From: Sphaerolaimus hirsutus
Lineage: Eukaryota > Nematoda > Chromadorea > Monhysterida > Sphaerolaimidae
DNA: 64,000 bases
Assembly (NCBI GenBank): GCA_964036195.1
Contig: OZ038451.1
Location: forward strand, 20,224,318 to 20,288,317
Direction of reading: 5' to 3'
The position numbers and the translations under genes are program-made. The first letter of the stretch is position 1. The number at the start of each line of letters is the position of its first letter. The notes under the pieces were generated by a model. That model saw only the letters and a program-made list of their open reading frames with translations, ran no database searches and had not been told where the DNA came from. Below are positions 17,018 to 62,735 of this stretch, in pieces.

Positions 17018-19793
17018 TCACATCACCACACCCCCCATCGCTAACCGGCGCACGCACTGCACAAAAGTAGCCCAAAGCGCGCCGTGCGACCACACGAGCA
17101 CAACGGGGCTGGCGCACAGGTTCACGCTGTCCAACTGCCCGCCGACGGCCAACACGACGCCGGGCAGGAGGTCGCGGCCCAGGTGCACCAGCAGAGTGAA
17201 CAGGGTGATGCTGTTGTGCAACGCGACCAGCTTGATCAGGCAGCTGCGGATTGGCACCCAGTTTCTAAGAGTCGATAAGTCCAACATTTTGAAGATTACC
17301 GTATTTCCTCAAAATACCCCCAGGGCCCGGCAGGGGGTTTCTTTTGTCAGAGTGGAAATTTTGAGGGGGGTTATTTCGAGGGGGGGCTTATTCGAGGGGG
17401 CGGGGTTATTATTTCGTCAGAAATTTTCACGAAATTCGTAGTAATGAGTACGCTTTTATATACCCAAAACAGGTAATCAACGTGTCCAAGTAGGGTATAT
17501 CTGGACATATCAACGTCCATTGCTACACAAACTAGTAAATACATGTGTAGCTACGATGCAAACTGCGACCAACATATACATCATGTACATTGCATACATC
17601 ATGTACATAATTCCAGACGGGGGGGGGGGGGTTATTTTTTCGAGGGGGGGTTATTTTTTCCCCAGCTCAAAAACACCTGGGAATATTTCGAGGGGGCGGG
17701 GTTTATTCAAGGGGGGGGGGGGGGGTAAATCGAGGAAATACGGTAGTTAGACATCGGGAAAGGGAAAGGGTTTGAATCTACAATTTGGACATACCATTTT
17801 TCACCATCTTCCATTTTTTCAATGTCAATTTCACAATTTCACCCTTGTTAAAGTGTAACATTTTGACACTTTTGGAGCAATTGAGTGAAATTTAAAAAAA
17901 ATCTCAACCGAGAAGTCGATAAGTCCATGCTATCCAGTAAAAGGATACTAAGTTCACCCCATTTCATAAAGTTCTCTAAGTAAATAGGTATTTTCATTTT
18001 CACAACTGCAATTTACCTTGTCAATTCCATGCTGCGTTTTATGGACAGCCTGACATGCAGGGGCTGCGGTTGCCTGCCGAAATCCTTCCAAAACTCCCTA
18101 TTTTTCTCAAACAAGTGCCAACAACCAAATAGACACATCAGGGATATCAGCGTCAACAGCATTGTGCCCATAATTTGAACTGTTTCAATGCCCACCACCT
18201 TTCCATGGGTGCACATTGTTACCTGTGGGCAATCCCAGACCTTGCAAAATTCCCAGTAAAATGTAAAATGTCATGCAAAGTGTCAAACGCCATGTAAAAT
18301 GCCCTGTAAAATGGCAAACCTTTGACACTTTGCATGACACTTGACATTTACAGGTCATTTTACAGGGTCTAGGAATGGCACCAGTTCACGTGCTTTTGTG
18401 TCATAGGGCTGGACAAAAGTGTAGGCCATTATTGGCTGACTGGACATCAGGAGGGCAAACGCCCAGGGGGCCACTGTGAAAGTTGTGCAGTTTTTGTTGT
18501 GTTGTTTAGTTCTATTGGAGGTATGCCATTCTATCGGAAGAAATACGGTAATGTATTGTAATGTGCACCAACACCAGATTCATTGATATCGACAGCATTG
18601 CACTAATCTATTAATATGGAATGTTTTAAACACATTTGAGTTTACTGGAATGAATTGACGTTTTTTATGTCTGATGTTTTGTCTGAAGGTAACTCAACCA
18701 GCTCAACTGGTTAGAGATTTTATCCTGTCTCAAGACTCAACTCAAGACTCTCCTGTTTTTGCTGACTCGACCAAGTTGACTCGCTGACTCACTCAGCCAA
18801 AAGATTTGAATTGCCCAAACTCTAGTTTGAGAAATGAAGTTTCAAGCACTTTGGCTATCAGTAAATACATCTAATTTCACCTGTCACCAGAGCCCTGTTC
18901 CAGTAACTTTTAAACCAGTGTGTGTCATATATCCTGTAGTTTGTCAGCTTGTATGTGAAAAGAGCCCTTTCCAGTGCCAAAGAAGCAACAATGAACACCA
19001 CAACACAGTACTGGTTGGACGGCAGCCAAAGTACGAGACTGCATGTGATGCGTTCCATCTGTGAGACAAAATACTGTATTTACTTGAATAATTCTCCCGG
19101 GTATTTTTTTTTCATCAGACTTTTCGATGGGGGCAATTCGAGGGGGGACATGTTCGAGGGGGAATTATTTTTTCGTCAAAATTTTCAAGCATGTTTTTAT
19201 CAACTCAGTTTATGAAACAGGCTTTATTAACAACATAACATAGGTACCATTTTAGTTCAGATTATACGGAATAAATTTATCATATGCGTAAAGGGGGGAA
19301 TATCCGAATATCCCCCTCACTCGTCTAACAGCGGAGAATTATTCAAGGGGGGATTATTCAAGACGGTAAATAGGTAGGTATACTCTGCGGCATGCTATAT
19401 ACATTTTATGACGTGGACAGCACAGCGTGACGTCATCATTAAAATTTTTTTCCAAAAATAAAAAAAACTGACATAATGACGCCTGGCACTATTTTCTTAA
19501 CATTTTTTGTATTTTAAAAACTGACCGACCACGAGTAAACAAGGATTTTCTACGAAGTAGAGAGCTAAAAGCCTGTGGAACTCTATCGCAAAATTAGCGA
19601 CGCCCTTCACTTCTGACGCGATTGCCATATTTATAAATTGCCACCGTACAAAATTGTCCATAGTGCGAGTTTTCAAGACAACGCAAAGCAGAAAAAAATT
19701 GATTAAAATTGATAATAATGATAGTGCACACAAAAAGATCAGTGCTATTTGAGTAGGTGGATTAGTTAGCGTATCTTTCATAATTTCGCACAT
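17018..19793 (-). CDS. Seven-transmembrane G-protein-coupled receptor, chemoreceptor-like
   Basis: Five exons: 19554-19793, 18881-19058, 18382-18473, 18017-18222, 17018-17264. Together they make 963 bases, 320 residues plus TGA, with every phase matching (0,1,0,2). Exon 1 has TM1 (SILINFFLLCVVL) and TM2 with an Asp-like Glu (NMAIASE). Exon 2 has the TM3 cysteine exactly 25 residues before the Arg of LER, the DRY-equivalent. Exon 3 is TM4. Exon 4 has an extracellular-loop-2 cysteine (VTMCTHG), TM5 and a basic third loop. Exon 5 has TM6 and TM7 (NLCASPVVLVW in place of NPxxY). The LSIKRSMELTRNW segment before TM6 recalls nematode Sra/Sre-type receptors; that family call is inference. Introns 1 and 4 hold TACCGTATTT-type elements and intron 3 is an introner-like element. 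The plus-strand frame 18834-19064 is a shadow. Confidence 0.85.
17297..17745. mobile_element. TACCGTATTTCCTC element in receptor intron 4
   Basis: Termini taccgtatttcctcaaaata and gaggaaatacggta. Long G-runs near 17618 and 17710. The core carries the atacatcatgtacattgcat motif of the family. Confidence 0.9.
18223..18381 (-). mobile_element. Introner-like element forming receptor intron 3
   Basis: The whole 159-base intron is one inverted-repeat element. Read on the gene strand it begins GTGCCATTCCTAGACCCTGT and ends in ttgcccacag. The inner arms (tgacctgtaaatgtcaagtg against tgtcatgcaaagtgtcaaac) belong to the CCCAAGCCCTGTAAAGTG family at 49216-49438 and 62215-62697. Removing it joins CTG to GTA in frame between TM4 and the loop-2 cysteine. 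Confidence 0.75.
19068..19370. mobile_element. TACTGTATTTACTTGAATAA element in receptor intron 1
   Basis: The start actgtatttacttgaataat and the end ttattcaagacggtaaata are inverted relatives of the taccgtatttactcgaataa subfamily. G-runs follow. Confidence 0.8.
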
Positions 19794-19929: not shown

Positions 19930-20349
19930 TACCGTATTTACTCGAATAATTCCCCCCACTTGAATAATTACCCCACTCGAATAATTCCCCCCTGTTAGGC
20001 GAGTGAGGAAAAAATAATTTCCCCACTTGAATAATCCCCCCCCCCCAATGATGGAAGGTAGTTAATGCACATTTATTTCAAAAACAATTGATGAAGTCAA
20101 CCCAAGCAAAAGAACTGTGTGTGGTTTGATTCACAGAATGCAAATGCAGTACATCGGGTGTTCAAAGATGCAAGTGTGCACTACCAATGGAAACAGGATG
20201 TGTATTTAGTGTGATAGAAACATGGCTGAAAATTTTGACGAAATAATAATCCCCCCACTTGAATAATTCCCCCCCTTGAATAGTTCCCCCCTCAAAAATG
20301 TCTGACGAAAAAATAATTCCCCGGGGGAATTATTCGAGTAAATACGGTA
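19930..20349. mobile_element. TACCGTATTTACTCGAATAA element
   Basis: Clean termini taccgtatttactcgaataa and ttattcgagtaaatacggta, with C-run arms. It lies just 5' of the receptor start codon, in the probable promoter region. Confidence 0.9.
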
Positions 20350-20784
20350 TAACTGAGTCATGCTGGCTGCTGGAAGGATGGAAAAATCTATCATCAACAA
20401 GTTAAATATTGCGGTGTGTGTTACTGACAACCCATTATATTACTGAAAGTTACCGGCAATTACCACAAGCGGCGAATATTTTTCCCGGAACGTTTTTTCG
20501 TTTTTTGGAACGATTTTTCTTTTATAAGTTACCCCGGTAATCACCGGTAAATGCGAAATTGTCAAATGTTATGCAGTGTCAAAAGTCATGTAAAATTAGC
20601 TGTAAAATATCAAATGTCTTTAACTCGAAAATACTGTATTTCTTCTAATATTGAAACCGAGATACCTCCAATAGAATAAAACTTCAAATTGAACGACAGG
20701 ATAGAAATTACGTTGAAAGAATGCCAAAAACAAAACAAAAACAAATGGATTGCCAGAGAGATTCGAGGATTCAAAAAGATAATT

Positions 20785-21800: not shown

Positions 21801-22587
21801 ATACGAAATGGAACGTCGCTTCTATTAGAACAAATACGGTAGTACTTGAATTTTCGAATTTTTTTCTGACAATATTTTAAAAATGTGAAAACTCAAAAAA
21901 TCGTAATTTTTAGTACATTTTCAAATTCTCGGTTCAATGCTTGTCATCCTCTCCTACGTCAGAGATTGTTCAATCAAATCTGTGTAACTTCGGTGGCAAG
22001 GGACTATATTTGCAAAGAGTTTGTTACTTGTTTCTATGTTACTTACATAAGTGGCGTTAATTGGTTGCGCACGCATTTTAATAGAAACAGTGTGTCCGAA
22101 ATGCATTTCAATTGACAAGTCCCATTGGGAAAACGAGTGTAAAACTTCTTTTGGGCACGACTGTAGCTTCCAAGGAATTTGAAATTCCATGACATTTGAC
22201 ATTTTCGCATTACCGGTGATTACCGGGGTAACTTATAAACGAAAAATCGTTCCAAAAAAGAAAAAACGTTCTGGGAAAAAATATTCGCCGCTTGTACGCG
22301 ACTCCGTTTTTTTAGTTTTTAATATTTTCTTTTTGTGAAAGTGTATACCTACATAAGATTATTGGAACTTCTAATAAGCTCCAAGGAAGTTCCAATAAAC
22401 TTAAATATAAAAAATATTACATTATTTATTTTAATACAGCGATGCCCGAGTATTTTTTCGTCTATGTTTTTACCCTCCCTTCCATTCTTTTAGGCATTGT
22501 TTCAGACATTCTGTGAAGTCCTGCCAATGTTTTGCTAATTTTTGTACCTGGCGGGCGGCAAAGTATGCGCCGAAAATTACTTATACC

Positions 22588-28908: not shown

Positions 28909-30285
28909 TCATCTCACATTCCATTTGTGCTTCATCTGTCCCTGGAATGACTGGAATTGGCCGGGTAAATTGTGGTAGGTCCCATGGAAATCTGCTGCCT
29001 CATCGCATGAGTTGGACCATTTTTTTCCATTTGTGTTGATTGTGCGTGATGTTTTATGAAAATTCTGATTCCAAAATATGCGAGTATGGGGTCGACCGCT
29101 TTGTTTCTTTGCAACTGGCATGGCTGCAACCTTGCATCTGGTTATTTCAGGTGTGGCGGGAATGTGGTTCTGGGTTGGTTTGTGCCCTGGCGGCTTGTCT
29201 GGCCAGCGTCTGGCTGTCGCCACTGTGGGCACCTTCACACCCTTTTTCTTCTTGGCATGCAGCACATTTGTGTTGCCTTTTTCCAATTTGGTTCCCATTT
29301 TCTTCCCATGGGCTTGCTTGTACTGCTTTTGGCCATTCTCTACCTTGGTACTGGCTTGCACTGGTTGAATTCTGGAGTTGACAGGGGACAATTGACTCAA
29401 ACATTTTTGTCGGTCATTTGTCATACTCTCTGTGGTATTTGTGACTCCCATTTCCTGTTTGTATTTCTCTGACAACCTTTCCAGCTCGTTGTGTGCTGTT
29501 TTCACTACTTGCAGTGGTCCCCATATAGCTGCTTGTCCAATGAGTAGTGGGTCTGCAGGTGTCAGGAATTTTCTTAATTTTACCACAGCTGGCAGCTTAT
29601 CCTTGTGCTGTACTCCATCAGGGGTTGTGTGCTTCACCAGCATGTCATAAATTTGGAGCCATTTTCCATTGATGATATTTCCTGATGTTCTGATGTGGCT
29701 GCCAGTGTATGGTCGGAATTTTGCCCGCTCTTCTGTTGGGTTCATGGCTGCCCTTGCCCATATGCTTTCCAACATTGTGTCTTCAATGAATAAGCCAATG
29801 CTGCAGCCTGTGTCAATGTGTCCAGTTATTGGTACCCCTTGAAATGAAATGATTGCCAATGGGTCTGGCGAGTCCATGGAGAGGATGTGGGTATCCTTGT
29901 CATTTTTTGTGCTTGCCACAGTGGGCACCCATTCATCCAGGCCGCCCCATTCTTCATCTTCGCTTTCACCTCCGTATACTGCATTTTCTGCTTCATACTC
30001 TTCCTGAGTGCACTGACTCACTGGGCTGTCTTTTTGGAATGGGATGCCCATGTCTTTGCATTTTTCCTCCATAATTTGCTTTGCATCTTGCTCTGTTTCG
30101 CCGCGTCTGGCCATGTTGCGTTTGGCATTTTCCGCTTTGCCCGGTTGGAATTTTGGTGATTTGCTATCTACAAAGCAATTAGATGGTTCATGGGGCATTG
30201 GCCCTTCACAGCAAAAAATAGATCCGTGAAGCGTGTGGAAGCGGGCTGGATGCGCGTGAAGCGGCGCGCTTCCACACGCTTCCAC
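28909..30285 (-). pseudogene. Gag C-terminus plus retropepsin-like aspartic protease region
   Basis: A long open frame. Near its start are cysteines that look like the second half of a zinc knuckle (CCEGPMPHEPSNC). In the middle is the protease signature HIDTGCSIGLF with catalytic DTG. The C-terminal third is Lys-rich. It shares frame with the gag frames upstream (30448-31923) and is cut off from them by the 30205-30590 insertion. No polymerase follows; the frame ends about 150 bases before the 3' LTR. Confidence 0.75.
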
Positions 30286-30590
30286 ACGCTTCCACCAACA
30301 TCACGAGATTCTGGGTGAAGTGTCTTCCACACGCTTCACCTATCTTCACCGCGCGCTTCACGCGCATCCAAACATGTGGAAGACACTTCACGCCGCTGGC
30401 GCTTCCACACGCTTCCCCCGCATATAAATTTGCGTGGGAGCGCGATATTAATAAGCGTGAAGTGCCTTCACGCATTTTTTCGTGATGTGTGTGGAAGCGC
30501 TGACATGCTTGGTGAAGCGTTCGGGAAGTGTTGGCGTGAAGACACTTCCCGACGCTTCACCGCGCATCCACACACCCATTTTTTGCTGTG
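30205..30590. mobile_element. Insertion with GTGAAGCGTGTGGAAGCG repeats
   Basis: Inverted ends cacagcaaaaaa / ttttttgctgtg enclose repeats of cttccacacgcttcac in both orientations. It interrupts the gag zinc-knuckle region of the retrotransposon, so it is younger than it. Confidence 0.75.
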
Positions 30591-31960
30591 CTTGGTGTAG
30601 ATGATGAGTGCACCATGGCCCCTTGTGTGTTTTTGGGTCGAATGTTGCGCGTACTTCTGCTTGTGCACTGCTGCTTATTGATGAGTGTTGTGCTTTTTGC
30701 TCCATTTGCCAGTTCTGGTTATTGCGACGGTCTGTTTGCCAGTTGCGGTATCTTTGGTGAGGCCGCTGGTTCTGCTCTTCTTTGCGCTGTGTGCGTGTTC
30801 TTTCCACTGACTGACGTGCCGCCTCCATCATGGTTACTGCCATGTCCAATGTGCAGGCATCTTCCACCCAGCGCTGCTGCCACATTTACCAGCAAGATGC
30901 TGGGACCAATTTTGGTACTTCAATGAACAGCTTATCACCTATCATTTGTTCCCGGTCCCTATCTGATAGCCGCTCGCTGATGTGGTAAAATTTGGTGCAT
31001 AGGCATGTGTACAGCTCTGTCACAGACTCTCCGGCTGTGGCCTTTAGGTTGTACCAATCCGCCACTGAATATATTTTGTGGTCCAACCGATAAATTCCGA
31101 TTAATTTGTCTACCACATACAAAATGTCATGGCGTCTGGCAATCCTGATACTTAGGTACCGGTTCTGGGCATCGTCAATTAAACATTGCTGGAATACGCT
31201 GTTCCAAAACAGTTGTTGTTGGCTTTCTGGTACACCCATGGACTGCTGCATGACCATGTGGAGCCAGAATTTGAATGGCCCGGTCTTGCTCTTCTGGTCC
31301 CCGTCAAATTTTATTTGCTTACTCGCTGCCGATGCTACGTGTCCCACGCTCATTCGGTCATTGGGTATGACTTGCGTGCTCAGCCTTGGCAGTCCATCAG
31401 GTGACAATGCGTATTCTTCCATGTACGCAATCATGCGTTCCAAAATTGATCCCTGTGGTAGCGTCGCCAATCGGTCATCTGTCACCCATGTCCATGGGTC
31501 GCTTTTCCTGTTGGGCTGTGGGTCGCCGCTGTAAGCCACTGCCATGGTTTGGCTGCTTGCTGATGGGTCGCCCTTTGCTGGGCTTAGCGCACGTTTGGGG
31601 CTTCTCGACTTTCTGGGCAATTTTGTTGTCAATTAGACCAAATGATCCAGTATCTGTTGTTGCTGTTGCAGTTGTTGCTGGTGCTGTTGTGCTTGTTGCT
31701 GTTGCTGTTGTGCTTGCTGTTGTTGTTGCTGCTGGATTATGTTTATTAGTGTTGACATGTCCATTGATCGTGCTTGCACTTTCAATTCTCGCCGTGGGGT
31801 GGGAACGTACGCGGCGCGTTGTGGTCGTCTTTTGTCGTGCTGAAATACTTTTCTGCCAATTTCAGCACTTTTTTTGCCAGCACTTCTGTGCCGTCTTTCC
31901 ATGGGGAATTGAATTTGGGCCATTTATCTTTGGCGTCCTTGATGCTGTCGTCGCGATGTT
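30448..31960 (-). pseudogene. Gag-like region with in-frame stops and a frameshift
   Basis: The frames 31923-31633, 31632-30886 and 30885-30448 lie in one register, separated only by stop codons at 31633-31635 and 30886-30888. A glutamine-rich run at 31640-31735 precedes a capsid-like helical section (FKFWLHMVMQQSMG, LIGIYRLDHKIYSVADWYN). Upstream, a different register (31960-31785) has coding character (KDKWPKFNSPWKDGTEVLAK), so a frameshift lies near 31800. The copy is broken or depends on recoding. Confidence 0.7.
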
Positions 31961-49215: not shown

Positions 49216-49438
49216 GTGCCAATCCCAAGCCCTGTAAAGTGTAAAGTAAAGTGTCAAATGTAAAGTCAAATGCAAAGTAAAGTGTCAATCAAAACAAAAA
49301 AGAAAAGATTTTATTACTGAACTTTGCATGACAATTGACAGTTTACTTGATACTTTACTTTACATTTGACATTTGACTTGACACTTTACTTTACAGTTGA
49401 CACTTTACTTTACACTTTACAGGGCTTGGGACTGCCCC
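49216..49438. mobile_element. Introner-like family member outside genes
   Basis: Begins GTGCCAATCCCAAGCCCTGT after CCAG and ends with the inverse, followed by CCAG. Interior: aaagtaaagtgtcaaatg repeats. Same family as receptor intron 3. Confidence 0.8.
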
Positions 49439-62089: not shown

Positions 62090-62735
62090 GACCCCACGCA
62101 TGGTAGTTGACATCCACACTTAATGACAACTGGTTCCCATCCCAATTCAAAGCTTTTGCATTTGAACGTCATTCGTCGGCTCGTCAGCAAACTTTGAATT
62201 GGGATAGGAACCAGGGGGCAGTCCCAAGCCCTGTAAAGTGTAAAGTAAAGTGTCAAATGTAAAGTCAATTGCAAAGTCAAATGTCAAATGTAAAATAAAG
62301 TGTCAAATGTAAAGTCAAATGCAAAGTCAAATGTCAAATGTAAAGTAAAGTGTAAAGTAAGGTGTCAAATGTAAAGTCAATTGCAAAGTCAAATGTCAAA
62401 TGTAAAGAAAAGTGTCAAGTGTAAGGAAAGTGTCAATTGTGTATCCAAATCATATTTTTCATATCCAAATCTTATGTTTTTGTATCCAAATCTTATTTTT
62501 TGACAAAAGATTTGGATACAAAAACAAGATTTGGATACACGATTGACACTTCTTCACATTTGACTCAACATTTGATACTTTACTTAACATTTGACATTTG
62601 ACTTAACATTTCACATTTGACTTAACATTTCACATTTGACTTTGCATTTCTTTACATTTGACACTTTACTTTACACTTACAGGGCTTGGGATTGCCACCA
62701 GCTGACATTTGGTGTCAATGTCAACTAGCGTATGT
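62090..62735. mobile_element. GTTGACATC MITE split by an introner-like element
   Basis: MITE halves 62090-62214 and 62698-62735 (ttggtgtcaatgtcaactag) surround the 62215-62697 insertion. Confidence 0.85.
62215..62697. mobile_element. Introner-like family member, long copy
   Basis: Begins ggggcagtcccaagccctgt after CCAG and ends acagggcttgggattgcca followed by CCAG. The CCAG is part of the interrupted MITE, so target duplication of about 4 bases is visible. Interior of aaagtgtcaaatg repeats and a tttggatacaaaaac hairpin. Confidence 0.85.

Follow-up and report, generated by a model that had tools for sequence, protein, structure and literature searches.

A probable introner in a nematode membrane-protein-like gene: a palindromic transposon flush with a CWG target duplication

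The window, the whole 64,000-nucleotide stretch of Sphaerolaimus hirsutus DNA that was analysed, carries on its minus strand a gene in which a short predicted intron coincides, but for three bases, with a palindromic transposon. In the order of the gene's strand, the features are as follows.

18882..19058, minus strand: exon before (MERITCSLVLW...); the span is the extent of the paralogue match
18382..18473, minus strand: upstream exon (TVAPWAF...KAREL), placed by eye and by paralogue matches
18382..18384, minus strand: 3-base target duplicate on the upstream side, CTG as read on the minus strand, forming the final codon (Leu) of the exon before it; paralogues have Leu or Ile here
18223..18381, minus strand: intron as predicted, 159 nt, GT...AG, made up of the element and one copy of the target-site duplication; phase-0 frame; paralogues lack it
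18226..18381, minus strand: transposon (palindromic MITE, 156 nt), whose GTGCC end comes first in the direction of the gene; placed by family comparison and hairpin
18223..18225, minus strand: 3-base target duplicate on the downstream side, CAG as read on the minus strand, which provides the predicted 3' splice AG
18017..18222, minus strand: downstream exon (VTMCTHG...SMELT), placed by eye and by paralogue matches
17021..17278, minus strand: exon after (NWVPIRSCLIK...); the span is the extent of the paralogue match

The minus-strand borders of the intron read GAACTG/GTGCCATTCCTAGACCC...GGTCTGGGATTGCCCACAG/GTAACAATG (slashes mark boundaries) or, at greater length, GAACTG/GTGCCATTCC ... GGGATTGCCCACAG/GTAACAATG. 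Nearly the whole of the 159 nt is one inverted repeat, with both arms located, and as RNA the sequence folds into one long hairpin of -80 kcal/mol that joins the two ends; none of 200 shuffled sequences folded as well (mean -37.5, sd 3.6 kcal/mol; z -12). An earlier sequence-only reading had proposed a 159-base inverted-repeat intron at 18223-18381, and the arms, fold, borders and family matches bear it out. That reading had also equated the element with the whole intron, which holds for the 156 nt of 18226-18381 but not for the closing CAG, a copy of the target duplication. Similarly, the element end does supply the predicted GT donor and CAG does close the intron, but the acceptor comes from the target duplication rather than from the element. 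Excision in silico keeps the frame, as claimed, in phase 0, with the junction E L/V T M C. Three features count against an introner (an intron-generating transposon): the donor GTGCCA is weak, no clear pyrimidine tract is present, and an alternative GT, likewise in frame, lies 18 nt inside the element.

The description of the gene as a 7TM receptor was not established. It matched no family in a Pfam search and no relative among 545 scored candidates in a protein-database search, and the PDB search returned one weak unrelated match (E 0.016). What the predicted protein does establish is a membrane-protein-like gene with paralogues. The statement that all other exons fit holds by eye and through the paralogue matches, which span four exons, and has no wider support.

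Paralogues were found by searching the genome with the joined protein, and nine stretches (L122-L130) were read. Five of them (L122, L123, L124, L125 and L127) have a single exon across the intron site and align through the junction without a gap; L123 and L127 are near-identical, leaving four distinct stretches. L130 was judged by eye to be open through the site, whereas L128 stops short of it and L126 is ambiguous upstream, and neither is among the five. Relatives with an ordinary intron at this position and no element ends would have spoken against an introner, and the opposite was found. These uninterrupted paralogues also bear on the possibility that the element entered a pre-existing ordinary intron, which afterwards shrank down to it. 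With one genome at hand, any single gene could have had that history; yet the paralogues are intronless at the site, and in many copies described below the exon directly meets the duplication on both sides, which invasion would not give. We regard this history as very improbable.

A further paralogue stretch, L129 (G000:C15:21963700-21964050), contains an exon whose start is flush with the right end of a family copy (CAG/GAC), two codons upstream of the window intron site, and whose other end is flush with the left end of another family copy (CTG/GTGCC). Judged from their near ends alone, both introns adjoining this exon seem to be elements. Since the element ends lie at different places in L129 and in the window gene, introns of this family would have arisen repeatedly among these related genes. 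At residue 90 the comparable paralogue stretches have Leu or Ile, encoded by CTG in L123, L124, L126 and L127, CTT in L125, ATA in L122 and ATC in L129. By these codons the exonic CTG of the window gene looks original and the intronic CAG derived, so a single later mutation in the intronic duplicate (CTG to CAG) probably created the AG of the window intron. Against a strong form of this reading, CTG..CAG pairs also flank copies with no clear exon (L048, L049).

The 348-Mb assembly (762 contigs) was searched with the window intron as query. Among 2558 first-look candidates, the 40 that were scored contained at least 86 matching stretches at E <= 0.001, which excludes chance. Three other copies used as queries gave 1525, 2900 and 995 first-look candidates, with 40 scored each. 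In all, 133 distinct copies were read; flank duplicates (L062, L064, L068, L086) and the incomplete L077 were left out of the counts. The usual ends are GTGCCARTCCC and GGGGCAGTCCC. Tallied ends comprised 61 GGGG and 60 GTGC, so that the element has a GGG end and a GTG end. The flanking 3-mers are identical in 77 of the 133 copies, and 72 of these pairs are CWG (CAG with CAG or CTG with CTG); when the flanks were displaced by 3, 6 and 9 bases, matches fell to 4, 9 and 3 copies. The element thus duplicates CWG upon insertion, and it belongs to a large family whose ends are flush with that duplication in these 72 copies. Two further members lie in the window.

49216..49438, plus strand: second family copy, of subfamily 2, flanked on either side by the CAG duplication; two other contigs carry identical copies
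62215..62698, plus strand: third, longer family member, CAG on both sides

The identity of the first of these to copies on two other contigs indicates that part of the family is young. Flank GC did not separate copies by splice-capability (12/22 GC-rich and 16/30 other copies in subfamily 1; 14/30 in subfamily 2). Mixed duplications were observed as CTG..CAG more often than as CAG..CTG (11 versus 5 of 122), outside clear exons too; we give no cause for this. Other repeats are also present in the window, where Rfam gave no match: dispersed repeats beginning TACCGTATTTACTCGAATAATTCCCCCC or similar, in both orientations and with long C or G runs (~17290-17740, 19080-19380, 19930-20350 and elsewhere); another dispersed repeat, likewise in both orientations, around TTACCGGTGATTACCGGGGTAACTTATAAA (20480-20580 and 22180-22330); and minus-strand open frames at 28909-31632 that by eye resemble the gag and protease regions of a retrotransposon.

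Duplication of CWG together with GGG ends suggests the NuwaI group of the PHIS superfamily, whose elements are described as having CWG duplications and ends usually starting GGG and as occurring in animals only (PMC4482050). The present family shares the duplication (72/133 exact CWG pairs) and has GGG at one end. It differs from NuwaI as portrayed there (PMC4482050) in having GTG at the other end, a difference that would create a splice donor, and no coding partner with these ends was found. The gene types encountered in this genome (TMEM121, DB module, PKG) agree with an animal host. The PHIS-type transposase family PF13359 has 163 matches in the genome; among the stretches examined no autonomous partner with the ends of the MITE was found, the one placeable right end being different and a third stretch having no such ends. 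Of these 163 Harbinger-type matches, a set noted with L120 and L121, many have the same score. Every match runs across stop codons, which probably mark an intron. A pair of copies shares 99.8% identity over 4164 bases, indicating that this other transposon spread lately.

Family copies also lie exactly inside conserved exons. Removal of the element and one duplicate from L010 gives a gap-free alignment to class III alcohol dehydrogenase (ADH5) over 93 residues, and the joins of L075 and L106 align without gaps to SIRT5 across 88 residues and to cytoplasmic dynein heavy chain across 81 residues. Across or beside further copies, Pfam matches were to DB module, TMEM121, ZIP, carboxypeptidase, DUF7027, SIR2, ELP1, Galactosyl_T, MYND, acyl-CoA dehydrogenase, thioredoxin, RINGv, dynein and trypsin. 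Homology supports 17 exonic copies, 16 by Pfam or PDB and the window copy by its paralogues.

Homology-supported copies: L001, L006, L010, L011, L015, L027, L028, L066, L067, L069, L073, L075, L081, L090, L091, L100, L106

Within this list, the scores of L015, L028 and L066 do not reach the cut-off set by Pfam itself. For L028, L069 and L081 the match is confined to one side of the junction, and L027 has one domain on each side. The boundary was shifted by one base for L027 and L069. Counting against the joins, that of L090 (thioredoxin-like) has two extra residues beside the junction relative to its best PDB relative, and of 52 copies tested in GT-first frames 36 gave no homology as against 16 that did. 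L005, which presumably resembles TMTC proteins, gave nothing with Pfam and was left out of the count.

All 17 supported copies are GT-first on the coding strand. Because the tested copies were mostly picked by long or high-scoring joined frames, this is not a blind count; the 52 GT-first copies were submitted as 36 and then 16, the first 36 on the GT-first strand only, and the 16 further frames gave no Pfam match. Opposite-strand frames, comprising all 29 copies of codon score >=4 without homology plus L073, gave none in 30 (10, then 20). Among the 45 copies of codon score >=4, homology was found for 15 GT-first (the window copy included, via its paralogues) and 0 GT-last. The orientation bias by codon score itself is weak and not beyond its background: copies scoring above 8 (n=26) divide into 19 GT-first and 7 GT-last (p 0.03), low scorers into 31 and 20, and high and low scorers are alike (p 0.32). 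The seven GT-last copies (L109, L003, L111, L060, L101, L107:1345 and L102) had no Pfam match in either frame orientation; L060, L003 and L101 score nearly equally on both strands, and the other four are GT-last by margins of 3.6 to 7. Frame-shift controls for open-run length were weak.

An AG stands at the border in 14 of the 17 supported copies; its lack in L073, L011 and L066 counts against the proposed splicing. L073 (G000:C3:25042792-25045941) is flanked by CTG on both sides in a gene for a PKG-like kinase, with an alignment that is gap-free through the glycine loop; by eye, the next three introns of this gene are GT-AG, and the kinase motifs are kept. L011 also has CTG on both sides, with an in-frame AG 9 nt earlier, and L066 has CAT on both sides and a Galactosyl_T match below cut-off. 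L103, L071 and L070 likewise have CTG on both sides, are GT-first and lack the border AG, and are coding-like by codon score only. Internal AGs in the CTG copies are out of frame with donors at 0, 6 and 18 nt, although in L073 a pair of internal sites that adds 42 nt stays in frame (both by eye). For such copies there are three options: tolerance of a TG end, use of another site, or broken alleles.

Exact removal restores an exon whether it is spliced or not, so the joins show exon insertion only. Taken by themselves they could for the most part reflect unspliced insertions carried by dead or polymorphic alleles, a view with which the three copies lacking AG and the weak codon-score bias agree. 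It is hard to square with the 17/17 GT-first copies and their 14 AGs, with frames that are open and conserved in these genes, with the further introns and kinase motifs retained by the PKG-like gene, or with exonic copy ends that are 3-21% different from the arm consensus and so do not look fresh; we give it little credence. From orientation, AG and conserved genes together, we infer splicing. A different account would have the hairpin rather than the usual splice signals drive removal, as proposed for Amoebophrya introners (PMC7789003), leaving the dinucleotides of little weight. The very stable hairpin, which brings the two ends together, and the copies without AG fit such a process. The hairpin is the same in both orientations, however, yet the supported copies are all GT-first, and neighbouring introns in the PKG-like gene are GT-AG, making this account improbable as well.

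We propose that a non-autonomous palindromic transposon, presumably mobilised by a PHIS transposase, takes CWG as its target and duplicates these three bases on insertion. Of its two ends, one begins with GT and would serve as the 5' splice site; the downstream duplicate, if CAG, would serve as the 3' splice site. Given the end that starts GTGCC, insertion at CAG yields exon-CAG/GT...CAG/exon, and splicing at these exact sites would take out the element with one duplicate and restore the coding sequence. For the window gene, the insertion probably hit a CTG leucine codon, the intronic duplicate of which later became CAG. By each feature tested the window intron has the character of an introner with predicted splicing: like introns match up to both predicted splice boundaries, 17 homology-supported exonic copies having flush ends; introns stand where relatives (paralogues here, not orthologues; five stretches, four distinct) have none; and inverted repeats and a target duplication mark DNA transposition, as they do in some of the known introner families. 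The introner proposed by the sequence-only reading is thus supported directly by the observed family and its ends, by the flush CWG duplication, by copies exactly inside conserved coding exons and by intronless paralogues. Taken together, we conclude with a probability of roughly 0.88 that the window intron is an introner, a NuwaI-type (PHIS superfamily) non-autonomous palindromic DNA transposon forming introns at CWG.

Introners of Micromonas and Aureococcus were reportedly described by Huff et al. in 2016. Closest in logic to the present family are the Chrysochromulina introners, in which the element brings the 5' splice site and the target duplication the 3' splice site; they differ in having a 4-bp duplication and no terminal inverted repeats, and in not being from an animal, as against a 3-bp CWG duplication and a long palindrome here (PMC9860276). 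Those of Amoebophrya share inverted repeats forming a hairpin and 3-5 nt direct repeats at exon borders, but belong to a dinoflagellate and have mostly non-canonical, motif-poor borders, whereas here one family has GT and mostly AG in its exonic copies (PMC7789003). In an animal, Fritillaria borealis, introner transposons with weak splice sites are named as one possible source of odd introns, and ~95% of introns escape GT/AG (PMC13326754); in the PKG-like gene here, by contrast, the three further introns are GT-AG. A 2022 survey found introners in only two animal groups (PMC9860276), and one fungal paper lists PIF/Harbinger among repeats in gained introns. Intron formation, proposed here, is not mentioned for NuwaI in the passages of PMC4482050 drawn upon, and searches of the open-licence literature yielded no account of an introner belonging to PHIS or NuwaI.

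How introns originate has long been debated, and for gain on a large scale the best candidate is the introner. A transposon type that targets CWG would explain such gain base by base, one end and the target together making both splice sites with the protein unharmed, and the existence of paralogues that have the element and others that lack it opens intron gain to direct testing. The CTG copies raise the question of how strictly the spliceosome of an animal needs AG. We put forward tentatively, and with some doubt, that CTG (perhaps CAT) insertions also act as introns, the host removing GT...TG ends perhaps via the hairpin and a single later mutation in the intronic duplicate supplying the AG, a step that the window gene seems to have taken. 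If true, this would be a transposon-born intron caught maturing stepwise in an animal.
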